From the NCBI GenBank assembly GCA_949751835.1, contig CATKHK010000006.1, positions 682,001-746,000 of the forward strand: 64,000 bases of DNA, read 5' to 3'. Both the position numbers and the translations under genes were made by a program. Source of the DNA: Blepharisma japonicum (taxonomy: Eukaryota > Ciliophora > Heterotrichea > Heterotrichida > Blepharismidae). Below the pieces are notes generated by a model that worked only from the letters and a program-made list of their open reading frames with translations, made no database searches and was not told the origin of the DNA. Positions 18,269 to 64,000 of the stretch are shown piece by piece (the stretch's first letter is position 1; every line of letters begins with the position of its first letter).

Positions 18269-18455
18269 GTTTTATAATAGTAAATATTTAAATTTTAGGT
18301 TAATTTAATAATAAAACTTTGTTTAATTTGAAAATTTATATTTAATGCTTGACTTAGCTGAAATCAATTTGGATTAATTGTAATTATAAACTAAACTGTG
18401 GCAAAGTTTAAAATTTATGCTAAAAAGTAATTAATTTTATGAAATTTTTGATGGA

Positions 18456-35374: not shown

Positions 35375-35837
35375 AATATCTATTACTTAATTGAAAAATG
35401 AATAAAAGGTTGAAAAAAATTTTAAAATTACGAAATTTCTCCAAATTATCAATAAAATGAAGGCTAATATATTTTAAGCAAGCTTAAAGTACTTATTTTT
35501 CAGGATAAGAATACTTTATTTGAGCAAAATTTGAATTAGTCAAGGTCAGTAAATAGGAAATTGAAAAGAAGATTTATCCCGCTTCAATAGCAAATTATTT
35601 ATTTTTCCAATTTTATTATATAAATTCCAAAACTGTAAAAAAATCTTATAAAATTATACAAATTTTATTAATTTTATGCATTTCAAAGATTAAAATAAAA
35701 TGCGAAACTAAATTAAAATAAAAATGCTCTATTTATTAATTATTTTAATCAAAATATATAGAAATATGCCTAAATAATTTCATGATAAAAATTTAAAAAT
35801 TAATCTTGACTAACTTAAAAATATCTTATCATTTCTT
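35375..35837. promoter_or_regulatory. Intergenic region between two divergent genes
   Basis: 463 bp, very AT-rich, with long A and T runs and no credible ORF. It must hold the promoters of both the DRAM-like gene and the giant gene. I see no distinct motif beyond TATA-like stretches such as TATATAAATT near 35620. Confidence 0.4.
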
Positions 35838-38800
35838 ATGGAATTCGTTAGGGGAAATTCTAATTCTAATAATAATAAAATGCCGACCAATGCAGAACTT
35901 GGTGCGTGCTTTCTTTCGAGGACTCTTGACCTCACTGCAAGAAAGCATTACAACTCATTTTTCAAAGCAACAGCATGATCAAATGAGCCTCCTCCTATCC
36001 AGCCTCTGTCGCCTGCTCAATCGCCATTCCCTCTTCTATCTCCTTCTCCACTCCATTCTCCCTCTCAAATTTCACTTAGAAGCGAGTCAAGCCATGACCT
36101 ATTCTTTCCACGTCTAGACAATAATCAAGAGACCCAAATTTCTCAAGCTTCCCATGGCTCTCTACTAAGCATCTCATCCACAAGAAGGCGATACACTAGG
36201 ATCGAAATGCTCAGAAAAGTCATTGACAAGTTCATACTCAGTATCAAAATCAACATGGATCAAGAAGCTTTATGGAGATGGCAATTCGTCAACCAAAAAA
36301 TGAAAAAAATAGAGCAACTTAATGCACTTCGTGAAATCATGAAAAAGAAAAAAGAGCGAGATTTAGTAGGCTCCCTTCGTAAATTCAAAAAGCAATCAAC
36401 AGAAGATCGTCTCATACCCCTCAGAGGAAGACTCACCCCAGCAGACAAAAGAGATGTATTAATGAAATGTGTGAGGAAAATGATAATTGAAGGAAGAGTT
36501 AACTTAGAACAAAGAGGATTATGGAAATGGTATATAAAGGCTATTGATTTTTACCCATATGCTCCACAGCCTTCCAATCTTCAATTGAATGCTCAAGAAG
36601 TTTTGCATAGAACAATTATGAAGAATATATGCAGAAGAGTTAACTATAGAGAATTCCAGGCTAAAAAGAGGTGCTTTAATTCATGGAGAGACCCTGATGG
36701 ACAAATTTTGGTACAAGTAGTCAAAAGAACTGCTACAAATCCAGGAGAGTTGAGAGCAAATAAGAAGCTTTTCGATAAAGAAAAATCAGAAAAATTAGTT
36801 AAAGGGCTAGAAAGACTTGGACATCTTCGCCAAAACTTTGGAAAACAGGTAATTTGGAAATGGTATCTTAACACTTTCCTGCAAAAAACACGTCAGGACT
36901 CGATTAAAAAGATTTTGCTAAAGCTAAAACTCCTCAGACTTGGGAAAAAAGAAAGCTTTTCAACATGGAGACTTGCAAGTATGAGCAAAACTGAAATAAT
37001 TATAGAAGAAGAAGAGAAAATAGAGGTATCAACAAAGTCAAAAATAATTGGAAAACAAGAAGCAATTAAAGTCAGATCAGGCAGAAATCAAGGCCAAGAA
37101 GTAGCAGCCATAAACTTGTCAAATTTAATAAAAAAGAGAATTGCTTATACTATGAGCAATATGAGAATGGCTTCAGAATTTAATGATAAAAGAAAAGCAA
37201 TGATCAGAAAAACACTGCAGAATTTAGCCCTCATTGCAAAGCAGCATTTGAGAAAAGGCTTTGAAGAATGGAAATTTAATGTAAAAGAAAGAGAATTAGA
37301 AACCTCTAAAAGAGTAGCTAAATCTGATAAAAATCAGATTATGAAAAAAAGCTTGAAAAATTTAGCCCACATCGCAAAAGAAATTGTGCAAAAGAGGTTT
37401 AACCATTGGAAACTTTATTATAAAGTTGAAACAAACGACGAAGTCCACAATCAAAAAATCAAAAACAATAGAAAAACAATTGTAAAATCTAGCATGAGAA
37501 ACCTTTCACATCTTGCTAAAGAAAAAGTCCAAAGTGGATTCAACCTATGGAGAGCCCACGGATTTGAAGAAAACCTTGAAAATTTCAATAAAGAAAATGC
37601 TATCAAAAAAGCTCTTAAAAATCTGTCACATGTAATCAAAAATACTCTCCAAAAGAGCTTCACCATTTGGGAAAATGCTGCAGGTATTGAAATTACTAAA
37701 ACTAAAGAAAATTTGACTAGAAAAAGTTTGCAAAATTTAGCCCATATTTTCAAGGAAGGGCTGCAAAATGACTTATTCAATTGGAAATTATTTGTAGCAA
37801 TAAAAGCAAATAGAGCATTATCTAAAACAAGAGTAGGAATGACTGTGAAATCCTTTGGTGGGATTCAAAAAGTAGTTGTTCAGCCTTACGAAGAGTACGA
37901 AAATGATGAAATATTTGTTAAAAGGTTCAGCTCAGTTGTAAGACCAGCAATTTTGTTAGAAGAAACAAGCCAAAAACGCCAAGCTGCTTATAACCCTATA
38001 ACACGTGTACTTTCAGTTCCAGTATTTGAATATGAATATAAGCGCACAATGACAGCAGTTGACAACAAGCCGCTGATATCTTTAGAAATTATTGATGAAA
38101 ATAAAGAAATTTCGAGAAAAATCCTAAATCTGGAATGGGAGCAAAAAGTAATAAACAAGCTTAGAGTAGGAAAAAATTCACCTTTGCACCGAGTAACTAG
38201 ACCAATTTTAATGCCAGAAATAAAGCACTCAGTTAAAACTCAAACCTCTAGTCATAAACTACTCTCAAAGCCAAGCGTTCACATTGAGCTGCTGAATTTC
38301 AATAAAATCAGATCTAAATCTGTCATAAATAACCTTTCAGCACATGCTAGGCTCAGCTTACAAAAACTATTTGATAACTGGAAACAAGCCACAGTTTTGG
38401 CATCAGATAAAACTTATAAGCAAATATTATCCGACCGATTTTCAGCTGAAACTGATAAATTCGATAAAGATGGCTTTATGGGCAAATTAGTAAGGAAAAT
38501 GGCCCAAATTTCTGATATCCGAAATAAATTCAGACAAAATGCCTTATATAGATGGCTGAAATTCGCAAATAAAGATAAATACTCATCATTAGCTATCAAA
38601 ACATTGTCTTCAGCAATCTCAGAAAGAAATAGAAGAACCCTCAAAAAGGCTTTTGAAAAGCTTATCCCTGAAGATACTACTTCTCTGGATTTATCCAAAA
38701 AACTCCACCTAAATGTCCTCAATAAAATCGCTATGTTCAGCTTATTCAAAGCATTTGGAATTTGGAAACAAAATATTGTAGAATTTGAAGAAATCGAAGA

Positions 38801-41800
38801 ATTCATAACAACCTCTAAAGCTTCACAAGAAAGAAAGGTGTTTTTCCTTAAATCTAAAGTATTTACTGTTCCTTGCTTATATTTCAAAGAGCCAGTAATA
38901 GAAATTCAAAGGTTTGGAGTTGAAAATAAACCTTTAATTCAGCCTGAAATCATAGATTTCTTGAATACTTTTACTAAAGCCTGCTTAAGTAACTTAAAGC
39001 ATATGTCAAGAATTAAAACACGTCAAGCTTTTAACATATGGAAGGAATCAACTGATTTTGAAAATGACGAAATTTTATCAGCTGCAGTAAAAAGAAGATT
39101 CTTAAAAGGAAAACCATCCAAGCCCAGAAGCCAAAAAATGGACACTATGGTCAACTACTTATACAGAATGCATGAAACCAGAAGCCAACTACTCGGCCGT
39201 GCTTTATTTAAATGGCTAGGCTATAGGCTTGCAGGACTCTCTCACCAGACGACTCATAATCTTCTATACAAGCCTTTAACAATCCCTGAAATGGATTATT
39301 CATTTGATCTGAAAGCTATCAAATATTCAGGAATTTTAATGAAAAAGCCTAGAGTAATGATTGAAGAACTAGATGAATTCAAGAGAAATTCCCATTTATT
39401 AGCTGGAAAGCCGAAAGGGAATGAAAGAATGAGCTTAATTGTAGAGAAACTCTGTAAAATTGCAAAAGCAAAAGAACATGCAAATGAATTGGCATTATTC
39501 AAATGGTTCAGCCATGGTATAAGCGAGAAGTGTGAGAAATCATTTTATAAAGTATTTACAAAGCCTTTGACTGTAGCAGAAATTGAAAATTCGTATCAGA
39601 AATATACTGAAAAAGTATTAGCAAAACCAATTGCAATGATTGAGGAAATCCAAGAACTGACTCAAAATCAAAAAGAAATTATGAAGAAGAATATATTCAA
39701 ATTGGCAAGAATTTTCAGAGGAAATCTTCAAAAGGTTATTAATAGATGGAAAATTAATCATCATAAGAAAAGCACTGCAATTGCAAAAGGAAAGACAAAG
39801 GCAGTTAAAGTAAGATCTGCTCCAAGAAATAGACCAGTATTCGAAATACTGAATAAGCCTACAACTCAGCTTGAATTTATAGATCACTCAAAGAATGTTA
39901 AAGATTTACTTGCAAACTTAAGCCACGCAGTTAAATACAATTTATTAAGGTCCCTTAACTCATGGAAAAATACTGCACAGCTTATATCAGCAACAAAAAC
40001 TGAAGTTCAAGTCTCATTCAGCGTAATACAAAAGATATCACTTGCTCCAGAAATCAAATACGAAGAAGAAAATATTGCAAAGAAAATGCATTTAAGAGCC
40101 TTAAGCAAAATTGTCATGCTTGGATTGCATAAAGCATTTGACACTTGGAAACAAAATTTAGTAGAATATGAAGAAGTAGAAACAGAAATCCAAATCTTTG
40201 CTCCTGTTAACAAACTAATTGTTATTCCGGAAATGCAATCAGCACCAACTCTTATTTCCTTAGAAATACAAAAGACGTCTATTGTTATACTGCCAAGAGT
40301 TCTACCAGAGCTTTCAACAGAGAAAAAAATACACGATATGGAGAACAAGTATAAGCAAAAAGTTCAAGTTAACTCATTATCAGCAATTCTCCCTCCAATT
40401 ATTGTTCCTGAAATTTTGATGGAGCATGAAGGACAGCAAGTTCAATATTTCTCTATGTGTAACAAATCTATTGTTTTCCCGATTTATCAAGATGAAACTG
40501 TAAAGAAAATAGGCAACATTGCCAAGTATCTTTCAATAGCAGCTCAAAAGAGAGAAGAATTTGCGAAAATTGCTCTCTTTAAATGGTTTTCTAAAATCCA
40601 TGATAATGATGTTAAAGGTACCTCTAGGTCTATATTCTCAATATTTGGTAAACCTATAGTCATGATTCAGTACTCTCTAGATGCTAAAACAGTAGTATAC
40701 TCAGAAAGTGTAAAACAAAAGCCAAGGATAATGATCGAAGAAACTGATATAGTCAAGAAAAATTCCCATTTGTTATCTGAAAGGCCAAAAGATGATCAAA
40801 AAATGCAAATGGCTGTTGAAAAATTATTCAGAGTAGCACAACTTAGAAAAATATTGACTGAAGTTGCAATCTTTAAATGGATTAGTCGTGGAATTGCTGA
40901 CGAGGTCAAAAAGCTGGATTATAAATTATTCACAAAGCCTTTAACAACAGTTGAGTTTGAAAATTCTATTGAAGAGTACAGATATGCAGACAAAGTTTTA
41001 GCCAAACCTATTGTGATCATTGAAGAAAACGAAGAATTTACTGAAAGCCAAAAAGAAATCATGAAAAAATCAATTTATAATTTAGCTAGAATTTTCAGAG
41101 GAAATCTTCAAAAAGTAATTAATAGATGGAAAATTAACCATCACAAGAAAAATACTGCTATTGCTAAGAGAAAGACAAAGGCAGTCAAAGTTAGATCAGC
41201 TCCAAGAAATAGACCAGTATTCGAAATACTGAATAAGCCTACAACTCAGCTTGAATTTATAGATCACTCAAAGAATGTTAAAGATTTACTAGCAAACTTA
41301 AGCCACGCAGTTAAATACAATTTATTAAGATCTCTAAATTCTTGGAAGAATGCTGCACAGCTTATATCAGCAACAAAAACTGAAGTTCAAGTCTCATTCA
41401 GCGTAATAAAAAAGGTATCAATTGCTCCAGAAATCAAATACGAAGAAGAAAATATTGCAAAGAAGATGTGCATAAGAGCCTTAAGCAAAATTGTCATGCT
41501 TGGGCTGCATAAAGCATTTGACACTTGGAAACAAAATTTAGTAGAATATGAAGAAGTAGAAACAGAAATCCAAATCTTTGCTCCTGTTAACAAACTAATT
41601 GTTATTCCGGAAATGCAATCAGCACCAACTCTTATTTCCTTAGAAATACAAAAGACGTCTATTGTTATACTGCCAAGAGTTCTACCAGAGCTTTCAACAG
41701 AGAAAAAAATACACGATATGGAGAACAAGTATAAGCAAAAAGTTCAAGTTAACTCATTATCAGCAATTCTCCCTCCAATTATTGTTCCTGAAATTTTGAT

Positions 41801-44800
41801 GGAGCATGAAGGACAGCAAGTTCAATATTTCTCTATGTGTAACAAATCTATTGTTTTCCCGATTTATCAAGATGAAACTGTAAAGAAAATAGGCAACATT
41901 GCCAAGTATCTTTCAATAGCAGCTCAAAAGAGAGAAGAATTTGCGAAAATTGCTCTCTTTAAATGGTTTTCTAAAATCCATGATAATGATGTTAAAGGTA
42001 CCTCTAGGTCTATATTCTCAATATTTGGTAAGCCTATAGTCATGATTCAGTACTCTCTAGATGCTAAAACAGTAGTATACTCAGAAACTGTAAAACAAAA
42101 GCCAAGGATAATGATTGAAGAAACTGATATAGTTAAGAAAAATTCCCATTTGTTATCTGAAAGGCCAAAAAATGATCAAAAAATGCAAATGGCTGTTGAA
42201 AAATTATTTAGAGTCGCACAACTTAGAAAAATATTGACTGAAGTTGCAATCTTTAAATGGATTAGTCGTGGAATTGCTGACGAAGTCAAAAAGTTAGATT
42301 ATAAATTATTCACAAAGCCTTTAACAACAGTTGAGTTTGAGAATTCTATTGAAGAGCACAGATATGCAGAAAAAGTTTTAGCCAAGCCTATTGTGCTTAT
42401 AGAAGAACTCGAAGAATTGACTGAAAGCCAAAAAGTAATTATGAAGAAAAGTATATGCAATTTGGCAAGAATTTTCAGAGGAAATCTTCAAAAAGTTATT
42501 AATAGGTGGAAAATTAACCACCATAAGAAAAATACTGCAATTGCTAAGAGAAAGACAAAGGCAGTCAAAGTAAGATCAGCTCCAAGAAATAGACCAGTAT
42601 TCGATATACTGAATAAGCCTACAACTCAGCTTGAATTTGTTGATCACTCAAAGAATGTTAAAGATTTACTTGCAAACTTAAGCCACGCAGTTAAATACAA
42701 TTTATTAAGGTCCCTTAACTCATGGAAGAATACTGCACAACTAATATCAGCAACTCAAACTGAAGCTCAAGTCTCATTCAGTGTAATGCAAAAGATATCA
42801 ATTGCTCCAGAAATCAAATACGAAGAAGAAAATGTCGCAAAGAAGATGTGCATAAGAGCTCTGAACAAAATTGTTATGCTTGGACTTGATAATGCATTCG
42901 ACACTTGGAAACAATATTTAGTGCAATTAGAAAAAGCTACAACAGAAACCCAAATCTTTATTCCTGCAAATAAACTTATAATGACTCCTGAAATTCTATC
43001 AGTCCCAACTCTTGTTTCCTTAGAGATACAAAAGACATCCCCAATTTTACCTCCAAGAGTCCTACCAGAACTTTTAACAGAGCAACAAATTCATGATATG
43101 GAGAACAAGCATAAGCAAAAAATCCAAATTTTATCAGCATCAGTAATTCTTCCTCCAATTGTTGTACCTGAAATCCTTGTTGAGCCTACAATTCAGCATA
43201 TCCAGCATTTCTCTTTATCTAAGAAATCCATTGTTTTCCCGCTTTATCAAGATGAAACTGTAAAGAAAATAGGCAGCATTGCCAAGTATCTTTCAATAGC
43301 AGCTCAAAAGAGAGAAGAATTCGCAAAAATTGCTCTCTTTAAATGGTTTTCTAAAGTCCATGATAATGATGTTAAAGGTACCTCTAGGTCTATATTCTCA
43401 ATATTTGGTAAACCAATAGTCATGATTCAGTACTCTGTTGAAGCTAAAACAGTTGTATACTCAGAAACTATAAAACAAAAGCCAAGGATAATGATTGAAG
43501 AAACTGATATAGTCAAGAAAAATTCCCATTTGTTATCTGAAAGGCCAAAAGATGATCAAAAAATGCAAATGGCTGTTGAAAAATTATTCAGAGTCGCACA
43601 ACTTAGAAAAATATTGACTGAAGTTGCAATCTTTAAATGGATTAGTCGTGGAATTGCTGACGAGGTTAAAAAGTTAGATTATAAATTATTCACAAAGCCT
43701 TTAACAACAGTTGAGTTTGAGAATTCTATTGAAGAGCATAGATATGCAGAAAAAGTTTTAACCAAGCCTATTGTGCTTATAGAAGAACTCGAAGAATTGA
43801 CTGAAAGCCAAAAAGCAATGATGAAGAAAAGTATATACAATTTGGCAAGAATTTTCAGAGGAAATCTTCAAAAAGTTATTAATAGATGGAAAATTAACCA
43901 TCACAAGAAAAATACTGCAATTGCTAAGAGAAAGACAAAAGCGGTTAAAGTTAGATCAGCTCCAAGAAATCGACCTGTATTTGAAATTCTAAATAAGCCT
44001 ACAACTCAGCTTGAATTTATAGATCACTCAAAGAATGTTAAAGATTTGCTTGCAAACTTAAACCACGCGGTTAAATACAATTTACTAAGATCTCTAAATT
44101 CTTGGAAGAATACTGCACAGCTAATATCAGCAACAAAAACTGAAGCTCAAGTCTCATTCAGTGTAATGAAAAATGTATCAGTTGCTCCAGAAATCAAATA
44201 CGAAGAAGAGAATATCGCAAAGAAGCTGCACTTAAGAGCATTAAGCAGAATTGCAATTTTCGGACTACATAAAGCACTTAATACTTGGAAACAGTATTTA
44301 GTTCAATTAGAAAAAGCTACAACAGAAACTCAAATCTTTACTCCTGCAAATAAACTTATTATGAATCCTGAATTTCTATCAGTTCCAACTCTAGTTTCTT
44401 TAGAAATACAAAAGACATCTCTAATTCTTCCTACAAGAGTTCTACCAGAGCTTTTAACAGAGCAACAAATTCATGATATGGAGAGCAAGCATAAGCAAAA
44501 AATCCAAATTTTATCAGCCTCAGTAATTCTACCTCCAATTGTTGTACCTGAAATACTTGTTGAGCCTACAATACAGAATATCCAGCATTTCTCTTTATCT
44601 AAGAAATCTATTGTTTTCCCGCTTTATCAAGATGAAACTGTAAAGAAAATTGGCAGCATTACAAAGTATCTTTCAATAGTAGCTCAAAAGAGAGAAGAAT
44701 TTGCAAAAATTGCTCTCTTTAAATGGTTTTCTAAAGTCCATGATAATGATGTTAAAGGTACCTCTAGGTCTATATTCTCAATATTTGGTAAACCTATAGT

Positions 44801-47800
44801 CATGATTCAGTACTCTCTAGATGCTAAAACAGTAATATATTCAGAAACTGTAAGACAAAAGCCAAGGATAATGATTGAAGAAACTGATATAGTCAAGAAA
44901 AATTCCCATTTGCTATCTGAAAGGCCAAAAGATAACGAAAAAATGCAAATGGCTGTTGAAAAATTATTTAGAGTAGCACAACTTAGAAAAATATTGACTG
45001 AAGTTGCAATCTTTAAATGGATTAGTCGTGGAGTTGCTGACGAGGTTAAAAAGTTGGATTATAAATTATTCACAAAGCCTTTAACGACAGTCGAGTTTGA
45101 AAATTCTATTGAAGAGCACAGATATGCAGAAAAAGTTTTAGCCAAACCAATTGTAATTATAGAAGAAATCGAAGAATTAACTGAAATTCAAAAAGAAATG
45201 ATGAAGAAAACAATATGCAATTTGGCAAGAATTTTCAGAGGAAATCTTCAAAAAGTGATTAATAGATGGAAAATTAACCATCACAAGAAAAATACTGCAA
45301 TTGCTAAGAGAAAGACAAAGGCAGTCAAAGTAAGATCTGCTCCAAGAAATAGACCAGTATTCGAAATTTTAAATAAGCCTACAACTCAGCTTGAATTTAT
45401 AGATCACTCAAAGAATGTTAAAGATTTACTTGCAAACTTAAACCACGCAGTTAAATACAATTTATTAAGATCTCTCAATTCTTGGAAGAATACTGCACAA
45501 CTAATATCAGCAACTAAAATTGAAGCTCAAGTCTCATTTAGCGTAATGCAAAAGATATCAATTGCACCAGAAATTATATACGAAGAAGAAAATGTTGCAA
45601 AGAAGATGTGCATAAGAGCTTTAAACAAAATTGCTATAATTGGACTAAATAAAGCATTCGACACTTGGAAAGAAAATTTAGTAGAATATGAAGAAGTAGA
45701 AGAAGAAATCCAAATCTTTACTCTTGTTAACAAGCTTATAGTGATTCCAGAAATCCTATCAGTCCCAACTCTTGTTTCCTTGGAAATACAAAAGTCTTCT
45801 ATAATTGCTCCGCCAAGAGTTCTGCCAGAGCTTCTATCAGAGCAAATGATTCATAGCATGGAAAGCAAATACAAACAAAAAGTCCAAATTATATCATTAT
45901 CAGCAATTCTTCCTCCACTTGTTGCACCTGAAATTTCTATTGAGCACAAATCACATAAAGTCCAATATTTCTCTATGTCTAAAAAATCTATTATTTTCCC
46001 ATACTATCAGGATGAGACTACAAAGAAATTAGGAACCATTACAAGACATCTTTCGTCAATCTCACAAAAGAGAGAAGAATTCGCGAAACTCGCTCTCTTT
46101 AAATGGTTCTCAAATACTCATCAAAACGATGTCAAAGGAGCTTCTAGAACTATTTTAATAACACTTGTTAAACCATTATCTATTATTCAGTGCGAATTTG
46201 ACATAAAACCTATTAGATACTCAGAAACATTAATAAGAAAACCTAGAATTGTTATTGAAGAAATGGATATTGTAAAGAAAAACTCTCACTTATTGTCTGA
46301 AAAGCCAAAAGATGACCAAAAAATGCAAATGGCTGTAGATAAACTATTTAGCGTTGCAAAAGCAAGAAAATTACTGAGCGAAGTCGCAATCTTTAAATGG
46401 ATAAGTCGTGGAGTTTTCGAAGATAGGCAAAAGGTGCATTATTGGCGACTTACAAAGCCACTAACTACAATAGAAATAGAATTCTCTGTAAAATCATCTA
46501 TAAGTACAACAATTATTTTGTCAAAGCCGGTTGCAATGATTGAAGAAGTAGAAGAATTAAATGAAAGTCAAAAAGAAGTCATGAAGAAGACTGTTTTGAA
46601 CTTGGCAAGAATTTTCAGAGGCAATCTCCAAAAAGTCATTAATAGATGGAAAATTAATCACCACAAGAAAAATACTGCAATTGCTAAGAGAAAAACAAAA
46701 GCTGTCAAAGTAAGATCAGCACCTAGGAATCGACCTGTATTTACTATATTAAGTAAACCTACGACCCAGCTTGAATTTATAGATCGCTCAAAGACTGTAA
46801 AAGATCTCCTAACAAACTTAAACCACGTAGTCAAATATAACCTACTCAGATCTCTAAACTCTTGGAAAAACGCTGCACAACTAATAAAAGCAACAAAATC
46901 TGAAGCCAAAAAATCATTCAGCGTCTCTCAAAAGCTTTCAATTGCTCCAGAAATAAAATTCGAAGATGTTAATACCAAAATCCAAGTCTTTGTACCTTCC
47001 AACAAACTTATTGTGACTCCAGAAATCCAATCAGTCCCTATTCTTATCTCATTAGAAATTCAAAAATCTTCAGTCCTTATAACACCAAGAGTTTTGCCAG
47101 ATATTCTCACAGAACAAAAAATCCATGCTATGGAAAATAATCACAAACAAGCAGTACAAGTAATCTCATCATCAGCCATTCTTCTTCCAGTTGTCGTGCC
47201 TGAAATCCTATCAGAACCAGAAATCCAGCATTTCTCATTATCTAAGAAATCGATTGTGTTCCCATTCTATCAGGATGAAGCTATAAAGAAACTTGGTAGC
47301 ATTGCTAGACATCTTTCATCAGTGTCTCAAAAAAGAGAAGAATTTGCCAAACTGGCTTTATTTAAATGGTTCTCAAATATCCGTAGCAGTGATATTAAAG
47401 GAACATCTCGATATATTTTCTCAGTAGCTTCAAAACCTTTGTGTATAGCTCAGCAAGCTGAAGAACCATCTTTATTAAGTGCTTTAGGAAACTTGAAACA
47501 TGTGTCAAAACTAAGGTTGAGACAAGCCTTTAATAAGTGGAGAAAAGAAGCTGACTTAGAAAATGATGAGTTTTTGTCTGCAGCTGCTAAAAAATGGGCA
47601 TTGAAAGGAAAACCATCAGAGCCAAAAAGCAAAGAAATGGAAACTATTGTCAATTACTTAAATCAGACGCAAGAAACTAAAAGCCACTTACCTGAACGTG
47701 CTCTATTTAAATGGATTGGCTATAAACTTGCAGGTCTTTCTGATCAGTCTACTTATAAATTGCAATACAAACCTTTGATCGCCTTAGAAATAGACTATGC

Positions 47801-50800
47801 ATTTGAAAAGGAAATTAAAAAATATTCAGAAATAAGAAAACCATTAATAATGATAGAAGAAACTGATATAGTCAAGAAAAATTCACAATTTTTGTCTGGG
47901 AAGCCAAGGCTTGATAATGAAAAAATGAGCATGGCTGTTGAAAAATTATTCAAAATAGCTCAGCTTAGAAAAATATTGACTGAAGTTGCAATCTTTAAAT
48001 GGATTAGTCGAGGAATTACTGAAAAAGTCAAAAAGATGGATTATAAATTATTCACAAAGCCTTTAACAACAGTTGAGTTTGAGAATTCTATTGAAGAGCA
48101 CAGATATGCAGACAAAGTTTTAGCCAAACCAATTGTAATTATAGAAGAAGTCGAAGAATTGACTGAAAACCAAAAAGAAATGATGAAGAAAACTATATGT
48201 AATTTGGCAAGAATTTTCAGAGGAAATCTCCAAAAAGTTATTAATAGATGGAAAATTAACCATCACAAGAAAAATACAGCAATTGCTAAGCGAAAAACAA
48301 AGGCAGTTAAAGTAAGATCAGCTCCAAGAAATAGACCTGCATTCGAAATTCTAAATAAGCCTACAACTCAGCTTGAATTTGTTGATCACTCAAAGAATAT
48401 TAAAGATTTACTTGCAAACTTAGGCCACGCAGTTAAATACAATTTATTAAGGTCCCTTAACTCATGGAAGAATGCTGCACAGCTTATATCAGCAACAAAA
48501 ACTGAAGCTCAAGTCTCATTTAGCGTAATGCAAAAGATATCAATTGCACCAGAAATCAAATACGAAGAAGAAAATGTTGCAAAGAAGATGTGCATAAGAG
48601 CTTTAAACAAAATTGCTATCCTTGGATTAAGTAAAGCATTTGACACTTGGAAAGAAAATTTTGTAGAATATGAAGAAGTAGAAGAAGAAATCCAAATCTT
48701 TACCCTTGTTAACAAGCTTATAGTGATTCCAGAAATCCTATCAGTCCCAACTCTTGTTTCCTTGGAAATACAAAAATCTTCCGCCCTGAGACCACAAATA
48801 GTTTTGCCAGAGTTTTTGACAGAGCAACAGATCTATAGCATGGGAAATAGGCATAAACAAAGAGATCAAGTTATTTCATTATCCGTACTTATTCCTCCAG
48901 TATTATCTCCTGAAATACTTGTTGAACATAAGAAGCAGAATGTTCAATATTTCTCCTTGTCTAACAAATCTATTATTTTCCCATACTATCAGGATGAGAC
49001 TACAAAGAAATTAGGAACCATTACAAGACATCTTTCGTCGATCTCACAAAAGAGAGAAGAATTCGCAAAACTCGCTCTCTTTAAATGGTTCTCAAATACT
49101 CATCAAAACGATGTCAAAGGAGTTTCTAGAACTATTTTAACAACACTTGTTAAACCTTTGTCTATTATTCAGTGCGAATTTGACATAAAACCTATTAGAT
49201 ACTCAGAAACATTGATTAGAAAACCTAGAATTGTTATTGAAGAAATGGATATTGTAAAGAAAAACTCTCATTTATTGTCTGAAAAGCCAAAAGATGATCA
49301 AAAAATGCAAATGGCTGTAGATAAACTATTTAGCGTTGCAAAAGCAAGAAAATTACTGAGCGAAGTCGCAATCTTTAAATGGATAAGTCGTGGAGTTTTC
49401 GAAGATAGGCAAAAGGTGCATTATTGGCTACTTACCAAACCACTAACTACAATAGAAATAGAATTTTCTGTAAAATCATCAATAAATACATCAAATATTT
49501 TGTCAAAACCGATTGCAATGATTGAAGAAGTAGAAGAATTAAATGAAAGTCATAAAGAAGTCATGAAGAAGACTGTTTTGAACTTGGCAAGAATTTTCAG
49601 AGGCAATCTTCAAAAAGTGATTAATAGATGGAAAATTAATCACCATAAGAAAAATACTGCAATTGCAAAGAGGAAGACAAAAGCTGTCAAAGTAAGATCA
49701 GCTCCAAGAAATAGACCAGTGTTCGAAGTTTTAAGTAAGCCTACAACCCAGCTCGAATATATAGATCATTCAAAGAGTATAAAAGATTTACTTGCAAACT
49801 TAAACCACGCAATGAAATATAATTTATTAAGATCTCTCAACTCTTGGAAGAATACTACACAACTGATCAAAGCAGCGAAAACTGATGCACAAAAATCATT
49901 TAGCGTAGCACAAAAGCTTTCTATTGCTCCTGAAATTAAATATGAAGAAGAAAACCTAGCAAAGAAAATGCATTTGAGAGCCTTAAATAAAATTGCGAAA
50001 TTTGGGCTATATAGAGCTTTTGATAGATGGACAAAAGAACCAGTAGAGTTTGAGGAAGTCGAAGAAGTCACAACAACAGTCACCACAAAAACTAAATCTG
50101 CCCCAGATACTCAAACAATGTTTACAGCCTCATCGAAAGTCTCTGTAAGTCCAGTCATCTATTATGAGAATAGAGAAAAAGACACTTTAGCACAAAAACT
50201 TCATCTAAAAGCACTCAACAAAATTATTTTGTTCAGCCTCTATAAGGCATTTGACACTTGGAAACAAAATTTAGTAGAATATGAAGAGTTTGAAGAAGTG
50301 GTCACAGAAATCACAAAAATTAAAGCTTTACCTGTAGCAAGAAAAGTCTTCACTCCTGTTACTAAGGTTATTGTGATCCCTTGTTTCAATTTTGAAGCTA
50401 AAGAACAGACATTGACTCTCCAAAGATTCTTGGTGATGAACAAGCCAACCATTCTGCCAGAAATTGTTGATTTCTTAAGTACCTTTACAAAAGCATGCTT
50501 AGCAAATTTGAAGCACATGTCAAGAATTAAACTAAGGCAAGCTTTTAATACATGGAAAGAGGCCACAGACTTTGGAAACGATGAAATATTATCAGCTGCT
50601 GTCAAAAGAAGATTCTTGAAAGGAAAGCCATCGAAGCCAAGAAGCAAAAAAATGGACACTGTTGTCGACTATCTATTCCGAATCCAAGAAACAAGAAGTC
50701 AATTACTAAATCGTGCCTTATTTAAGTGGCTCAGCTATAAACCTGCAGATCTTTCTAATCAATTTACTTATGTTCCTCTATTAAAGCCTTTTATAACTCC

Positions 50801-53800: not shown

Positions 53801-56800
53801 AATCACATTTGTGAAGGTTACTCCATCTGAGATAGAAAGAACTGTAATTTATCCTCAACAGAAAGTACTGGTTCCTGCTGTGGTAGTTAATGATGTAGAA
53901 GTGATTGAGATTCAAGAAATGCAAAGTGCTTCGATTATGCCTAAACAAAAAACTAAGCAAAGATCTGCTAATAAAGCAAAAGCACATTTGAACAATTTGG
54001 ATCATATCGTCAAGAGATGGATTGCAAGAGCATTCTACACCTGGAGAATAGAAGATCCTGAAGCAATAGAAAGAAGACTAGTTCAATCAAAGAAATTGAC
54101 AAAGGAAACAGAACTAGTTACAAAGGTTTATTATCCAGAAACTAAATGTGTTATTCCAATAACTCTATCTGAAGACACTGAAATAATAGAAGAATTTGAA
54201 ATCCAAAGCACTTCAATCAAAGCTAAGCCTAAAAAAGCTAAAGTAAGATCCTCAAAGCCACATCTGAAAAATCTCGACCATATTGTCAAGAAAATCTTGT
54301 CATTAGTTTTCAATCAGTGGAAATACGCTAAGGAAGATTCTCCATCACATGATATAAATGCTTCAAGATCTGTATTTTTCTTAAAAGGCAAACCAATTAC
54401 TTCTATTGAAATCGCTTATGAAGATGTAACATTCATGAAAAAGACAAGCGCAATTAAACGGCCAAAGAAAAATCAAGCTAAGCCTAGAAAACAAAAGAGC
54501 CATTTACTAAATTTAATCCATATAGTCAAAGACAGAGTTACTCACGCATTTAATAAATGGAGCAGAGAAGCTAAGCAGCCAGTTGCAACGCTTGATCAAC
54601 AATTAGCTAATCTCTTAGAAAGAAAAGAATACAAATTAGCATCCAAAGTAACTATTCCTATTGTATTTGCTGAAGAAATTGAAGAATTCCAATTAGCCAA
54701 TCTCTTAGAAAGAAAAGAATACAAATTGGCATCCAAAGTAACTATTCCTATTGTATTTGCTGAAGAAACTGCGATCGAAATTGAAGAATTCCAATTAGCC
54801 ACTCTCTTAGAAAGAAAAGAATACAAATTGGCATCCAAAGTAACTATTCCTATTGTATTTGCTGAAGAAGCTGTGATCGGAATTGAAGAATTCCAAGTCC
54901 AAACGACCTCAATTCAACCAAGACCTAAACAATCTAAAGTTAGGTCAGCCAAGAAAACTAAGCCTCATCTTAAGAATTTGGATCATATCATTAAAAAGAT
55001 GCTTCTCATTGCTTTTAATGCTTGGAAAAACAGATCTATCATCAAGGAAACAGATATCACAAGAAAAGAAATCAGCCTTGTCACCAAGCCATTAACTTCT
55101 ATTGAAATCTTCTTTGAAGAAATAAAGTTTAGCAAGAAGACTTCTGGAATTGTAAAGCCTCAAAAGAAAGCCCAGCCTCCTGCAAAGAAGCAAAAGAACC
55201 AATTTGTGATACTAAACCATATAGCTAAAAGTTTGCTATCCAAGCCATTTAATAAATGGAGACTATTAAGCTTGCTTAAGCATGAAAAAACTACTCAACA
55301 GTTTATTAGATATTCTCCAATAGCATTGCCAATAATTCCGGTAGAAATAATTGACGAAACAAGAAAGCCAGACTATAAGAAAGCTATTTCAATAGCTAAC
55401 TATCCAAGAATTCTACCCGAATTTATGACTATGAGAAGTCCTTCTCATTATTTCCAAAGAGAAATGACAATAATTGAAGTCGCAGAAACATTTGACTATT
55501 CTATAACTCTTCAGTCATTGCAGAAGCCACTCACAATGATCACTAATCAATCCAAAGAAGTACAAGATTTAGAAGTACCTGCAGAAGTAATTGAAAAAGA
55601 AATACTCAGTGAAGCCATAGAATATGATAGTGAAGCTTTATCATTTTTAATTCTTACAAAGCCTATATTAGTCCCTGAAGCAACTGATTCTTCAAGAAGA
55701 AAGAGAAAGCAAAGATTAGGAGAAATTGATCCTGAAGACCAATACTTACCAGAAGAAATTGAAGAAAAAGCAGATGTCATTGAAAGAACTGTGATTTGTC
55801 CTCAACAGAAAGTACTGGTTCCTGCTGTGGTTGTTAATGATATAGAAGTGATTGAGATTCAAGAAATGCAAAGTACTTCAATTAAGTCTAAGCCAAAAGC
55901 TAAAGTAAGATCTGCTAAAAAAGCAAAAGCACATTTGAGTAATCTTGATCATATCGTTAAAAGATGGATTGCAAGAGCATTCTACACCTGGAGAATAGAA
56001 GATCCTGAAGCAATAGAAAGAAGACTAGTCCAATCAAAGAAATTGACAAAGGAAACAGAATTAGTTACAAAGGTTTATTATCCAGAAACCAAATGTGTTA
56101 TTCCAATAACTCTAGTTGAAGACACTGAAATAATAGAAGAACTTGAAATTCAAAGTACTTCAATCAAAGCTCAGCCTAAGAAGGCTAAAGTCAGATCTGC
56201 AAAGCCACATCTGAAGAATCTCGACCATATTCTTAAAAAAGTTATTTTTGCAGCTTTCAGTCAATGGAAAAATATAAGAAGAGAGCCATTAATAGAAAGA
56301 AGAGAGCTGAAATTGATAAGCAAGCCTATAATTTCAATTGAAAAATTATTAGCTGAAACTGCGCCTCTTCAATCTTTCAGTATTAATATCTACACTATTG
56401 CCTCTAAAGTCGTTATTCCTGCGGTGTTTATTGAAGAAACCATTACAATTGAAAAATTTGAGATCCAGAGCACTTCTGTCCAAGTTAAGCCTAAGCAAGC
56501 TAAAGTCAGGTCATCTAAAAAAGTAAAGCCACATCTTAAGAACCTTGATCATATTCTCAAAAGGATTTTAATGCTAGCCCTCAATGTCTGGAAAAATGCA
56601 TATAAGCTTCCATTAATTAAAGAGACTGAGATTACTACTTATTCTCCTATTGCCCATCCGATAATCCCTATTGAAATGAAGGAAGAAGAATCTGAAATAC
56701 AAATTTATAAGAAGCCTCTATCAATTGAAGTGTATCCAAGGGTGCTACCAGAAACTATGACTATGAGAAGCCCATCTCATTATATCCAAAGAGAGACATC

Positions 56801-59800
56801 CATAATTGAAGTTAGCGAAACATTTGACTATTCTATAAGCCATAAATCTTTATATAAACCAATCACAATAATCGCTAGCCAAGTTAAAGAGTCAAGCAAG
56901 CCAGCGTTATCTTTAGATGCTGCTGAAAAAGAAGCCTCCTCAACTACAAAATTCTATACTTTTGAAAAAGCACATAAGGCTATAGTGAAGCCATATTGTC
57001 AGTTTGAAGAAGTCCAAGGATATTATGCTGATTCTTCAGCTTTCTTAATAACAGCTAAACCTGTTTTGGTGCCTGAAACTATAGAATCTTCAAGAAGAAA
57101 TAGAAAGCAAGGAGAAATCTCTGAGGATGAGGCCTCATCAGAAACTGAAAAAGCAACTACAGAAGAAGCAAAGATTTTAGCAGAAAGAATTGTACTAATT
57201 CCTCAACAGAAACTTCTAGTTCCTGCTGCTTTGGTTAATGAAACTATTGTGATTGAAGAACTCGAAATTCAGAGTACTTCTATTAAAGCAAAGCCTAAGA
57301 AAACGAAAGTGAGATCAGCAAAACCACATTTGAAAAACCTTGATCATATCCTTAAAAAGGTCTTGCTTATAGCATTTGGCCAGTGGAAAAATACTAAGAA
57401 AGAGCTTTTAGTTGAAAGAAAAGAACTGAATTTGATTATCAGGCCTATAGTTTCAATAGAGAAACTTACCAGTACATATCAGTCAGAACAATCTAGAGAA
57501 ACAGCAATATATCATATGGATTCAAAAATAGCTGTTCCTATTGCATTCATTGAAGAATCACCTATTGAAATTACTTCTGGCCAATGGAAGAACATGAAGA
57601 GCGAATTCTTAGTAGAAAGAAAAGAGTTGAAATTGGTTAGTAAGCCTATCATTTCAATAGAAAAATTATCAATCGCGCACCAGCCTGAACAATCATTAGA
57701 AACATCAATCTACTATATTGAGTCTAAAGTAGCTGTTCCTATTATATTTGCTGAAGAAACAGTCATTGAAATTGAGGAGTTCCAAGTTCAAAGTACCTCT
57801 GCTCAAACAAGACCTAAAAAGACTAAAGTTAGGTCAGCTAAGAAAGCTAAGCCTCACCTTAAAAACCTTGATCATATCCTTAAAAAAGCTTTAATTCTAC
57901 CTTTCAATATATGGAAAAATGCAAATAAGCTTATTCTAACTAAAGAAACTGATATAGTTAGAAATGAAATTTATCTAGTCACTAAGCCTTTAACATCAAT
58001 TGAAATAATTTCTGAAGAAGTAGCAATTGCAAAAAGGACTGCTGGAGTTAAGGAACCTCAAAATAAACAAAAGAATCAATTTGTGATACTGAATCATATA
58101 GCTAAAAGTATATTGTCAAAGCCTTTCCATAAATGGAGAATACTAAGCTCATTAAAGCAAGAAAAAGACTTGGTTATAAGCCAGCAGATTATAAAATACT
58201 CTCCAGTAACTTATCCAATTATACCTATTGAGACTGCTATTGAAGATTCTCAAATTAAATCAGATCATAAGAAATCATTATCAGTTGAAGTCTTCCCTAG
58301 AGTGCTGCCAGAGCTAATGACTTCAAGAAGCCCATCTCGCTATATTCAAAGAGAAGTTTCAGTAATTGAGGTGAGTGAAAAGATTGACTATTCGCTTAGT
58401 CTTGAATCTTTACATAAGCCACTTACAATGATTACAAATCAAACTAAAGAATCTTCAGAATTTTTGGAAAAAGTTACCATTAGCGATGCTAAAGCTAAAT
58501 CTGCTCCAGCAAAAATTTCTTCTATGAAATACTGCTCCTTTGCAAGCTTCTATAAGCCTATATTAAAGCCTAAATTCCAAGATAAATCTGAAAAAGCCTC
58601 TTATCATGTAGAAAACAAGATTAGCATTGCTCCTGAATCCTTAATAGAAATTGATCATAAGTCCAAGCATTATGATGGAAAATTGACAAGACAATATGCA
58701 CTTGAATCGAAACCTTTGATAATCCTTGAATACTTTGACGATGAAAGAATCATATTTAAGCTCAGAGAAGACCCAGTCATTAAAGACATTTTAAGCACTT
58801 CTACAATGCAGGTGCATTATCAGCAAAAGCCTGAGCCTTATTTCACCTCGATTGATAAGACAACTACTGTATCTCTTTTGAAGAAGCCAATTACTATTCT
58901 AGATAGCATAGTAGATTTGGCTAAGGTAGAGAAAGTTTACCAATGCTCTTTAATGACCTATCCAAAAGTCTATTTAGAGTCTGTTAATGCAATTAAGCCA
59001 GCAAGATACCTTCAAAGAGAAATTTCAGTCATAGAAATCCATGAAGATGTTGAGAACAAATTCCAGCTTTCTGCAATCTCTAAGCCAATAACCATAATTT
59101 ATAATGAATCGAATCTTCAAGACTCTTCATCTTTGCAATCATCTTCTGAAGAAATCCCTGAAGAAGAATTCGGAGTAGTTTCGATTCAAGTTGAAGAAAA
59201 GACCACCAAACTACAGTCAGAAATCCCTGAAGTCAAAAAACCATCTGCATTGTCATATACAGTTCAGTCTCTACTTCTGATTCCATTAGAAATCCACTAT
59301 GAGAAGCCAAACATTGAAGAGAAAGAAGTCATTATTTCTCCTGATGTACTTTTCTTTAACCCAATTGTTGATGACTCACAAGAAGAAGTATTTACAATGG
59401 CGACTAAGGTTGTTACAATCGCAGAATTCCATGAAGAAAAGATTGTAAAGGAGGTTGAAAGCTCAGAAGAAAAGCAAGAAGCAAAAGATATGAAGTATTA
59501 TGAACTAAAGCCAATGCAAAAGCCAGTTGCTATCATAGAAAGTGCCTTTATGATTACACCTAAGAGACTTTTACATAGAGAATTTTCAATAATAGAAATT
59601 CAAGATGAAATCGATAATAAATTCTCACTACAAGCATTTGTTAAACCTATTTCTATTCTTGAAACTAGCCTCTCAATTAAGAACACTATCACTTCTATAA
59701 AAGACGAGCAAAATCTTCCTGGAGCTCATCATGCTCAAAAAGAGTCAAATCTACCAGAAATCACTAAAGTTTCACCACAAAAATTAATAGCAATTCCTAT

Positions 59801-62800
59801 GCAGAAACCAGTTATTGTCGTTGAAAGCTATATAGGCATTCATGATAGCTCTGCTTCGCTTTTACCATCACAAAGAAATCCTCTTGAAGCTGAGCCACAC
59901 TTTGGAGACTCAGAAGGCTTCAACTCTATGAGCTCTTCTGGTGTGAAAATTGAAAAATCTATATTTACTGCTAGCCATAAAGCTCAAACTTTCCCTGATT
60001 TCAGAACAGAATCCTCATTAGAAAAGTTACTTAAAATATCAATCGAAACTTATTCTGTAGCTTCAAGGCCTCATATATTAATTGAATCATTCAGCGAAGA
60101 ACAAATAAGAAAATACATCATTAATAAGAACAAATTTGTTACTAGAAGCAGTGAGCAAGAGGTTTCTTATACTCATACAGCGATTTCAAGGCCACAAATA
60201 CTACTTGAAACACTATATAAAGAGAAATCAAGAAAATCGAAGGTGAGATATGAAGAACAGCAAGAATCAGCAATTTTGGAGCCAGCACAGGAGTTTTCTG
60301 CAATCAAATACTCTATTGCCATAAGACCTCAGATATTAATTGAAAAGCATGATGAAGATGAAATAAGAAGCCTTATAATAAAGAGAGAAAGCTTATCTAT
60401 GGGTAGACAGGTAAGCCAAGAAGTTCCATCAGCTCCTTTTGCAATTATATCTAGACCAGTTGTACCAATTGAAACGCTTATTAAAGAAAAAGTAAGAAGG
60501 AATCTGAGAGATACTGCTCTTTATGATGAAGATCAAGCCGAGGATCAAGAATCATCAGTAGTTTATTCTGCTATTTCAAGGCCGCAGATAACAATTGAAA
60601 AGCTATATGAAGAAGTCACCAGAAGACGTAAGATTAAAAAGGTTTACATTGACTCCACTGAAAGAAGTGAAATCAAAGAAATTATTCTTGGATCTAAGCC
60701 AATCATTATTGTCGAGCAACATTCTCATATGAGTGGAAAAGCACCTTTTGTTGCTACCGAAAATATTTTAATTCCACTTGTAAAACCACTTATAGTCTGT
60801 GCAGAAATATCTACTGATCAAACTAGCATTATTCTTGGAGCAAAAAGTGTTATAGCAGCAAGCCCTGATTCAGAGATACTTAAATTGCAAGCTTTCTTTA
60901 AGCCTAAGATATCAATGCAGACTATTTATAAAAAGCCTATTGGGTTATTAGAAGATCCAAAAGACCAATCCTCTTCTGAAGAAATCCCTGAAGAAGAACT
61001 CGGAGCTGTTTCATTCCAAGTTGAAGAAAAGACCACCAAACTGCAGTCAGAAATCCCTGAAGTCAAAAAGCCATCTGCATTGTCATATACAGTTCTGCCT
61101 TTACTTCTGATTCCATTAGAAATCCACTATAAGAAGCCAAACATTGAAGAGAAAGAAGTCATTATTTCTCCTGATGTACTTTTCTTTAATCCAATTGTTG
61201 ATGACTCACAAGAAGAAGTATTTACAATCGCTACTAAGATTGTTACAATCATAGAATTCCATGAAGAAAAGATTGTAAAGGAGGTTGAAAGCTCAGAAGA
61301 AAAGCAAGAAGCAAAAGATATGAAATATTATGAACTAAAGCCAATGCAAAAGCCAATTGTCACTATAGAAAGTGTGATTACTCTTACTCCAAAAAGACTT
61401 TTACACAGAGAAATTTCAATAATAGAAATTAGAGAACAAATTGACAATAAGTTCTCACTTCAAGCAATTGTAAAACCGATTTCTCTTCTGGAATCTAGCC
61501 TTTCTCCTAAGAGTATTGAAAAATCTGTAAAAGATGAACAAAATCTTCCTGAAGCTCATCAGACTCAAAAAGAAATCAATTTGCCTGAAATCTATAAAGC
61601 ATCATCACAGAAGTTAATCTCAATCCCTATACAAAAACCAGTTATCGTTGTTGAAAGTTACGTGCACACTCATGACAGTACTGTTTCGCTATTACCAGGA
61701 TCGCAGAGAAACCCTCTTGAAGCTGAGCCACACTTTGGAGACTCAGAAGGCTTTAGCTCTATGAGCTCATCTGGTCTGAAAATTGAAAAAGCTACATTTG
61801 CAGCTGACCATAAAGCCCAAGTTTTCCCCGAATTTATAACAGAATCTTCATTAGAAAAATCTCTCAAAATCTCAGTAGAAACATATTCTGTAGCTTCAAG
61901 GCCTCATATATTAATTGAATCATTCAGCGAAGAACAAATAAGAAAATACATCATTAATAAGAACAAATTTGTTACTAAAAGGAGCGAGCAAGAAGTTTCT
62001 TATACTCATACAGCGATTTCAAGGCCACAAATACTACTTGAAACACTTTATAAAGAGGAATCAAGAAAAGCTAAAGCAAACTACGGAGAGCAGCTAGAAT
62101 CAGAAATTGTGGAGACAGCAAAGGTATCATTTGTAGTATACACCAAATTCCAAATCCTTCCTGAGCTTTTAATCAAAACATCCATAGCAGAAAAATCTGA
62201 AGCTTTATCAGTTCATTCAGCTATTCTCAGACCTCAAGTATCAGTTGAAAAACTCTATGAGGCTAAAACTAAAAAGCAACCTAAATACATAATTTCTGAG
62301 CCTGGAGCAATATCTCAAAAACAATTATCAGAAACCTTCTCAATCATTTCCAGACCTATCATTCCAGTCGAGAAAATAACTCAAATTGTCAGATATGATG
62401 CCATAGAAGATACAGAGAGAATAGTAAAAGAAAGCATCCTTGCAGCAAAATACTCTATTATATCAAAACCTCAGATTTTGATTGAAAAATATGAAGAGGA
62501 TGAGTTAAGAAGCTGGGTAATAAAGAGAGATAGCCTTTCTGAAAGTCAGGTGGCTAACCAAGAAATTCTGCTGTCAGCCTTTTCAAGTATATCTAGACCT
62601 GTTGTACCGATTGAAATGCTTAGTAAGGAAAAGATAAGAAGGCATCTCAAAGAAATTGTTCTTTACGACGACACAACTCAATTCCAAGAATCATCAGTAG
62701 TTTATTCTGCGATTTCAAGGCCACAGATAGCAATTGAAAAGCTTAATGAAGAAGCCACCAGAAGGAGAAAAGTTAAGAAGGTATACATCGAAAATACTGA

Positions 62801-64000
62801 GAGAAGTGAAGTCAAAGAAATTATTCCTGGGTCAAAACCTATCACTATTATTGAGCAATATTCTCAATTTAAAGGAAAGATTTCATTACTAACTGCTGAA
62901 AATTCTTTCACTCCTTTGATGAAGCCACTTATAGTTTGTGAAGAAATTTCTAAAGATACTCAAAAAGCAAAAATGATTATTGGTGTCGAAAGTTCTTTAG
63001 TAGCAAGTCCAGATTCAGAAATATTCATTTTGAAAGCTATTAATAAGCCAAATATTTTAATTCAAACTGAATATAAAAAGCCTGCTAAAATCATTGAAAT
63101 CACAAAAGATATATTTAGCGTAGCCGGAAAAGTCAAAGTAAAGCCAATTTTCGAACAAGAATCAGCATTTGAGGAATTAGATATAGAGCCAACAAAAAAA
63201 CTCGAGAATTTGCCTGAAGACCGCCTTAAAAGCATTGAACAATCTCAAAGCCTCAAGGATTCTTTAAGATCTCAAACATCAATAGAAACCGTGCAAAAAT
63301 ACTCTCCAATGTCAAAGCCTCAAATTTTGATTGAAAAACATGATGAAGATGAAATTAGAAGATTGATAATAAAGAAAGGCAGCCGCTCTGAAAGCCAAAC
63401 AATTGACCAAGAAGCCCCGTTAGCAGCTTATGCAAGTATTTCAAGACCTATTGTACCTATTGAAACCCTCAACAAAGAAAAGATAAGAAGACATCTGAGA
63501 GAAATTGTTCTTAATAGTGATGCAACTGAACCTCAAGAATCCTCATCAATTGTTTATTCTGCTATTTCAAGACCACAAATAACTATTGAAAAACTATATG
63601 AAGAAGTTACTCGAAGGCGCAAGGTTAAGAAAGTTTACGTTGATTATACAGAAAGCAGTAAAGTCACAGAAATTATTCTTGAGTCAAGACCTATCATTAT
63701 TATTGAGCAGCATTCTGATATGGAAGGAAAAGAGCCTTTTGTCACTTCTGAAAATATTCTAAGTCCTCGATCTGAGTTAGAAAGCAAGCCTTCAGTGAAT
63801 TTACCTGAGCTTTCTAAAGAGATCTCTACAAGCAGGACTCAATCAGAAAGTGCTCATATTTTGTCTGCAGTTATAAGACCTCAAATTCCAATAGAAACTT
63901 TGTATAAAGTACCTAGGAGAAAATATGGATATGAAAAAATAATTTCCCCAATGGATGTTTCTGAATCCTTAACCTTATCAGTACTATCTCGACCTATGAT
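35838..64000 (+). CDS. Giant Sfi1-like (centrin/spasmin-binding) repeat protein, at least 9,387 aa, runs off right edge
   Basis: One frame is open from ATG (35838, after in-frame TAA at 35811) to the window end; I checked the frame at eight sites along it. Residues 1-125 are Ser/Pro-rich. Then come dozens of motifs of the form L-x-N-L-x-H-[IL]-x-K ... F-x-x-W-[KR], for example KNLAHIAKEIVQKRFNHWK, matching the Sfi1 centrin-binding helix. They alternate with [KR]P-x-[ILV]-x-[IPV]-E segments. Residues about 1150-5790 are higher-order repeats. After about residue 7,430 Trp motifs almost cease and RP/KP motifs continue. Sfi1-type giants scaffold centrin or spasmin in ciliate contractile networks (Paramecium infraciliary lattice, Spirostomum GSBPs), so a myoneme role is likely. 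Only codon 47 (35976) is TGA. Alternative starts lie at 35880 and 36207. Confidence 0.85.
36207..39290 (+). repeat. N-terminal Sfi1-like motif block of the giant protein
   Basis: This part holds irregularly spaced Trp motifs, about every 25-40 residues at first: RWQFVNQ, KWYIKAI, SWRDPDG, KWYLNTF, TWRLASM, EWKFNVK, HWKLYYK, LWRAHGF. Copies are diverged, unlike the array that follows, so this may be the ancestral form of the protein. Confidence 0.7.
39290..53200 (+). repeat. Higher-order tandem array inside the giant gene, 1,380-bp (460-aa) units
   Basis: The landmark GNLQKVINRWKINHHKK recurs at about 39721, 41101, 42481, 43861, 45241, 46621, 48223, 49603, 51244 and 52462. The first six are exactly 1,380 bp apart; later units are lengthened or shortened. 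Each full unit has about five Trp motifs (INRWK, LNSWK, FDTWK, LFKWF, IFKWI) and about ten KP-type motifs. All length changes keep the frame. Confidence 0.85.
53800..58140 (+). repeat. Second repeat block of the giant gene (HLKNLDHI-type Trp motifs)
   Basis: Motifs here read KPHLKNLDHI-x-K ... F-x-x-W, each followed by KP-[IL]-x-[SI]-IE and IPI-x-F-x-EE elements. Segments repeat over about 1,960 bp: around 53830 and 55790 the sequences are almost the same. A short triple repeat (LLERKEYKLASKVTIPIVFA) lies at about 54601-54895. Confidence 0.7.
58200..64000 (+). repeat. C-terminal RP/KP-motif block of the giant gene, Trp-poor
   Basis: Motifs such as AISRPQITIEKLYEE, IISRPVVPIETL and IAIRPQILIEKHDED recur every 30-50 residues, while Trp is almost absent (one seen at 62514). 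A segment of about 1,830 bp (610 residues) is duplicated: 59143 matches 60973, and 60061 matches 61894. The block continues past the window. Confidence 0.75.

Follow-up and report, generated by a model that had tools for sequence, protein, structure and literature searches.

Giant Sfi1-type or spasmin-binding proteins are known from Spirostomum, a heterotrich ciliate, and have been proposed to act there as scaffolds for centrin or spasmin. The contractile lattice of Paramecium is built of an Sfi1-like protein and centrin (PMC5483020, PMC6189993), and calcium-driven shortening has been proposed for it (PMC6189993); PMC12661445 also cites giant proteins, Sfi1 among them, in which binding sites are repeated by the hundred. 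Here, a stretch of 64,000 nucleotides from Blepharisma japonicum was analyzed (“the window”, positions 682001-746000 of contig C6, in a genome of 45.2 Mb and 224 contigs), in which a giant gene for a protein of 12,725 residues begins on the forward strand. On the grounds of its sequence and by analogy with the systems above, we lean towards a cytoskeletal scaffold comparable in action to the Sfi1-type proteins that carry centrin in the contractile networks of ciliates, and consider it a good candidate for the protein that forms the backbone of a fibre contracting in response to calcium. Among the matches listed in the literature on centrin, Sfi1, spasmin, Blepharisma, Stentor and contraction, none was found to describe this gene.

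The giant frame and its two motif classes

The frame was open from position 35814, had its first ATG at 35838, and contained no TAA or TAG up to the end of the window (9,387 codons), in agreement with the sequence-only reading of this DNA, which had described a stop-free frame of at least that length and proposed extending the contig to find the stop. When the contig was followed for another 30 kb, the stop was located at a TAA in positions 74013-74015 of the extended coordinates (C6:756013), giving a full coding sequence of 12,725 codons (about 38,000 bases) and a product of approximately 1,467 kDa (1.47 MDa) with an isoelectric point of 9.3. The frame is real and longer than first noted: in the other five frames of the same 94 kb, TAA and TAG made up 2.9-5.8% of the codons, which excludes an origin by chance.

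Two classes of repeated motif were found along the protein. The W motif, anchored on Trp, followed the outline L..NL.HI.K..L..AF..WK, and a position-specific scoring matrix (PSSM) recognized 87 sites, compared with 0.2 in shuffled sequences; a looser rule (F, L, I or V at position -3) took 98 Trp. Of the 113 Trp residues of the giant, 92 had F, L or I at -3, 59 had L at -7, and 60 were followed by K or R at +1. Thirty-five W motifs chosen across 37197-58163 aligned without gaps and showed this pattern too. The second motif, called KP in this work ([FY]-S-h-h-[SN]-[KR]-P-h-[IV]-x-[PIL]-E-...-E), was recognized by its PSSM at 236 sites (4.5 in shuffles), and a short fixed version of the pattern occurred 102 times (1.32 in shuffles). 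Both matrices were trained on the giant itself, and coverage was computed at a false discovery rate of 2%: W motifs covered 16% of the residues, KP motifs 33%, and both together 50%. The window held 75 of the W and 177 of the KP sites. The abundance of both motifs agreed with the sequence-only reading, although its wording that the protein was built almost wholly of them was too strong; and the Trp motif, which it had taken as the main element with the second motif as an addition, was outnumbered by KP 2.7 to 1. Among the matches listed in the literature on centrin, Sfi1 and spasmin scaffolds, no earlier description of the KP motif was found.

The features of the gene located in the window, all on the forward strand, were as follows:

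35838-64000 (+): window part of the giant coding sequence, which continues to the TAA at C6:756013 (12,725 codons in total).
35976-35978 (+): the sole in-frame TGA (Trp) of the whole giant, codon 47.
36036-37000 (+): N-terminal region, with the stretch common to three paralogs of about 700 amino acids (TP.EKK...LW[RK]W).
37197-37811 (+): W motifs of the type NL.HI.K..L..AF..WK, five in a row.
39819-46739 (+): five consecutive repeat units of about 460 amino acids (1,380 bp), each with five W and about ten KP motifs.
48321-49721 (+): a sixth, near-complete 460-amino-acid unit, with partial copies on both sides, to about 53,471.
53970-58163 (+): mixed region with HLKNLDHI.K..L..AF..WK motifs between KP motifs.
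54600-54896 (+): a 102-bp short tandem repeat lying within the coding sequence.
58134-64000 (+): tract of 46 KP motifs with no PSSM-called W; 2,022 amino acids, running to 64200, past the window.

The N terminus, to approximately residue 470, consisted of a Ser/Pro-rich stretch and, after it, a conserved core containing W-[RK]-W pairs; from there on W and KP motifs alternated. Beyond the window there was a second tract of 1,020 amino acids with no called W and with 35 KP motifs, spaced mostly 23-30 amino acids apart. One IQ motif, a calmodulin-type binding site, passed the Pfam cut-off near the C terminus (21.7 bits vs. 20.3). All other Pfam rows were below their curated cut-offs and scattered over unrelated families, and the two strongest, PF06430 (E 7.4e-6, 26.8 bits vs. 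27) and PF23590 (E 2.2e-5, 24.5 bits vs. 27), were taken as chance matches in a repetitive protein. A phmmer search of the Protein Data Bank (PDB) with one 1,334-amino-acid piece of the giant gave weak matches only (E 0.28-0.65).

Coding constraint, paralogs and the reassigned TGA codon

The six repeat units (467 codons each) differed by 4-24% in their DNA, mostly at synonymous sites, with ratios of nonsynonymous to synonymous substitution (dN/dS) of 0.13-0.28 across the 15 pairs. W-motif codons were the most constrained class between units (dN/dS 0.15 vs. 0.24 for KP motifs and 0.24 for linkers; 9 of the 15 pairs), and invariant columns amounted to 100 of 181 in KP motifs and 104 of 166 in linkers. 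Within the units, the NLARIFRGNLQKVINRWK motif and its basic tail lie in a 53-codon segment that showed 6-23 codon differences per unit pair, while the last 47 residues of this segment were identical in all six. At the protein level NLARIFRGNLQKVINRWKINHHKKNTAIAKRKTKAVKVRSAPRNRP (42459-42596 and its copies) did not vary among the six units although its codons did, suggesting a special constraint on this W motif and its basic tail.

The units also bear on whether the frame might have arisen by misassembly or by the merging of several genes. Arrays of near-identical 1.38-kb units, the closest pair being 96% identical, are places where assemblies fail, and the copy number is accordingly uncertain. 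Against this, the frame was open over 38 kb, including the parts outside the arrays, and the units had dN/dS of 0.13-0.28 and were up to 24% diverged, so the diverged units, at least, were not created by the assembly. We regard an artefact as very improbable.

The claim of a single giant frame with no visible introns was also upheld, as far as the sequence can show. Introns in Blepharisma stoltei are mostly 15-16 bp long (PMC9942806), and AT-rich GT..AG stretches of 15 bp (at least 12 of 15 positions) numbered 0 in the giant and 4.8 +- 2.7 in its codon-shuffled versions; no excess over the shuffled versions appeared at 16 or 18 bp either, and hidden introns were rejected on this basis. Intron candidates in the neighbouring genes (two of 15 bp, one of them antisense to the giant, and none of 16 bp) were too few to use.

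Three further genes with related products were found at C7:549203-551452, C7:250557-252593 and C114:57136-59181, their frames being some 680-750 codons long, by a genome search with the N-terminal part of the giant and then with the genes found; only the best candidates were scored, and the set may be incomplete. The product of C7:549203-551452 matched the giant at E 1.2e-9 (window positions 36429-36686). Each of the three carried three W and one KP match at a PSSM score of at least 6, compared with shuffle means of 0.01 for W and 0.04-0.10 for KP (maximum of 1 in 200 shuffles each) and no matches in 12 control frames (5,938 amino acids). The KP match was clear in one paralog (21.4 bits) and only suggestive in the other two (7.8 and 10.2 bits). 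Because these proteins, about 18 times smaller than the giant, carry both motif types, the giant probably grew from a protein of this 700-amino-acid type by repeated internal duplication. Neither the 460-amino-acid unit nor a KP tract had another match in the genome at E 0.1, an alignment of the unit gave no relatives in one scan of viral contigs, and one small paralog had no match in the PDB.

The paralogs also informed the genetic code. In the alignment of the C114 gene with a C7 gene, five Trp positions had TGG in one gene where its partner had TGA, indicating that TGA is read as Trp in this genome; two further TGA, one in each gene, faced Tyr and Leu. The right end of contig C6 carried GGGTGTTA repeats, a permutation of the CCCTAACA telomere which, together with UGA as Trp and a genome of 41 Mbp, has been published for the heterotrich B. 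stoltei (PMC9942806). Both observations bear out the earlier assignment of this DNA to a heterotrich with TGA as Trp.

The giant avoided this codon: 112 of its 113 Trp codons were TGG and one was TGA. Elsewhere in the genome TGA accounted for 97 of 219 Trp codons in 56 open frames, a set taken without a one-by-one check, in which the window's kelch-like paralogs contributed many of the TGA and a frame that is probably not a gene (L012) contributed four. Among the comparison frames, the 15 with at least 480 codons had a share of 29 of 103, compared with 1 of 58 in the giant after removal of the repeat array (Fisher p 1e-5). Other pairs of codons ending in G or A showed no comparable shift in the giant (G-ending share compared with 26 frames of the window: Lys 0.34 vs. 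0.26, Glu 0.18 vs. 0.27, Gln 0.28 vs. 0.33, Leu 0.34 vs. 0.33). High expression could explain the scarcity of TGA as well as length.

A proposed scaffold function and its alternatives

In its Trp anchor, hydrophobic residues at -7 and -3, frequent K or R at +1 and many copies per chain, the giant resembles yeast Sfi1 and the Pfam family PF08457. The printed Sfi1 motif is Ax7LLx3F/Lx2WK/R (PMC5112337). With relaxed scoring (I allowed at -3, any of L, I, V, M or F at -8 and -7), at least three of the five positions agreed at 61 of the 113 Trp, against about 7.1 expected per shuffle, the effective number being lower than 61 because the repeats are not independent.

Several results weigh against an Sfi1-type scaffold. 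None of the 113 Trp had the full five-position consensus (Ala at -16 in 13 of them), and the Sfi1 spacing of about 33 amino acids was absent: none of the 86 spacings between PSSM-called W motifs was 36 amino acids or shorter (median 83), and in the relaxed set only one of 97 fell between 23 and 36. PF08457 gave no row in the nine pieces scanned (six pieces from 35838-59000, E≤1; three pieces from 59001-63002 and C6:746002-755997, E≤0.1; together the whole giant apart from approximately 333 codons, 63003-64001, and its final few), an outcome that the sequence-only reading had itself named as speaking against its Sfi1 assignment. The family was likewise without a row in the three small paralogs, and a W-motif profile had no match in the PDB at E≤10. 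Unlike Sfi1, moreover, the giant has KP motifs between its W motifs and a length of about 12,700 amino acids, and the two W-free tracts together take up 3,042 of the 12,725 residues, about a quarter of the protein. In an AlphaFold model of one unit, five helices were predicted over the five W motifs, at low confidence (predicted local distance difference test, pLDDT, only 31.7; predicted template modelling score 0.20); four shorter ones fell outside the W motifs, including one (residues 377-403) on KP sites, and the W motifs are therefore not set apart by being helical. The W-motif helix is accordingly a low-confidence prediction. The earlier description of the Trp motifs as Sfi1-type centrin- or spasmin-binding sites holds for the relaxed pattern and fails for the profile, the full consensus and the spacing; judged by its sequence, the giant looks as if it worked like an Sfi1-type scaffold, and we do not assign it to the Sfi1 family.

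The genome search with PF08457 had a single match, L001 at C113:20761-21018 (27.8 bits, the cut-off being 22). It lies within an open frame of 805 codons whose charged product has no visible relation to the giant.

Putative partners were abundant. In a genome search for EF-hand pairs, 150 of 1,191 candidates were scored, all 150 above the cut-off, and 13 of the best 30 loci (26 gene places), which were fetched, were read as centrins by eye within this genome. Nine very similar centrin genes (L020, L026-L031, L034 and L035) lay on eight contigs; six of them shared one sequence beyond roughly the first 15 residues, from which the other three departed at a few places. For one of these three, the five highest-ranking PDB entries were caltractin/centrin chains (lowest E 1.6e-59), followed by a fusion named after calmodulin, with most calmodulins far behind. 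The genome thus appears to hold an expanded centrin set, as expected of a ciliate calcium-contractile scaffold system; the infraciliary-lattice family of Paramecium comprises 36 centrins (PMC5483020).

In the scaffold that we favour, each W motif would form a short helix holding one centrin or spasmin-like EF-hand protein, approximately 87-98 per chain. The relaxed Sfi1 pattern, the number of W sites, the stronger constraint on W-motif codons, the centrin genes and the IQ motif near the C terminus speak for it. As W motifs never lie within 36 amino acids of each other, a continuous centrin-coated helix of the Sfi1 kind is not expected, and the long spacing suggests that individual helices, each bearing a centrin, follow one another along the chain with KP segments between them; these segments may act as linkers or as weak stickers tying parallel chains and carrying tension. 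A rise in calcium would make the bound centrins change shape or self-associate, shortening the chain or cross-linking neighbours, and the chain would re-extend when calcium is pumped away. The location in myonemes or a cortical lattice, centrin binding, the linker role of KP and contraction itself are all what we infer. By description, the nearest likenesses are PtCenBP1 of the Paramecium infraciliary lattice, with repeated motifs of centrin-binding type in a ciliate with many centrins (PMC6189993, PMC5483020), and the Spirostomum proteins, with their giant size, heterotrich host and proposed centrin/spasmin scaffold role.

A static centrin-binding scaffold of basal bodies, rootlets or connectors, tying basal-body rows, seems unlikely to us, although the Tetrahymena proteins Sfr1-Sfr13 speak for it: this ciliate family of centrin-binding-repeat proteins, comparable to the three small paralogs, consists mostly of basal-body proteins (PMC5112337), unlike the fibre role proposed here, and the paralogs are of ordinary size with the same motif types. 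The size of the giant and its amplified arrays would suit a long fibre better than a basal-body part. Somewhat more doubtful is the idea that KP is the main business of the protein, as a multivalent docking array (e.g. by beta-strand addition) or a self-association sticker, with centrin binding secondary. The excess of KP over W sites would fit it, as would the position of the KP tracts on the folded side of the charge-hydropathy plot, shared by all regions except the N-terminal 470 amino acids. A relaxed PxIxIT pattern, typical of calcineurin docking sites that bind by beta-strand addition, was enriched in the giant (83 matches, of which 66 fell on KP motifs, vs. 25.4 +- 5.0 in shuffles) and offers no more than a lead; this may simply restate the existence of the KP motif, and in 78 of the 236 KP sites the position that must be hydrophobic in PxIxIT is occupied by Pro. 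KP positions were no more constrained between units than linkers, which does not help the docking idea, and AlphaFold gave the KP region almost no structure (pLDDT 28.8). A PEVK-like entropic spring, also considered for the KP tracts, was weakened by their Pro content of only 6.0-6.5% and their place on the folded side of the plot.

More tentatively, the giant may be a two-ligand mechanical scaffold, in which W centrin sites alternate with a KP docking or sticker motif at the ratio found here. It would descend from a one-block ancestor of about 700 amino acids, its KP-only tracts (2,022 and 1,020 amino acids) would serve as cross-linking or elastic zones, and its length would exert selection on the genetic code, TGA having been purged after codon 47.

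Neighbouring genes and significance

Upstream of the giant, a minus-strand frame began at 35374, with about 460 AT-rich bases separating its start from that of the giant. Downstream, the next gene began approximately 16 bases past the stop, and its start resembled an adenylate or UMP/CMP kinase (by eye, no family search being made). No RNA families or tRNAs were found in the window. The region 557-34409 was occupied by an array, mostly on the minus strand, of related genes of about 406-439 codons starting with MECW, eight of which were listed; shorter frames (KIFF...) recur between them, and two of four pieces tested passed a Pfam kelch cut-off. Within the array lay a Ras-family GTPase (14188-15273, minus strand, E 4.4e-21) and a TLC-domain protein (17546-18271, minus strand, E 1.1e-15).

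The fast contraction of some ciliates, driven by calcium rather than ATP, is an open question, and its models rest on giant scaffolds for which there are few sequences. The giant described here provides a hypothesis for a second motif, defined peptides, and small paralogs suggesting the starting point of its expansion. Its near-absence of TGA also makes it a natural test of whether reassigned stop codons keep a termination cost that rises with gene length.

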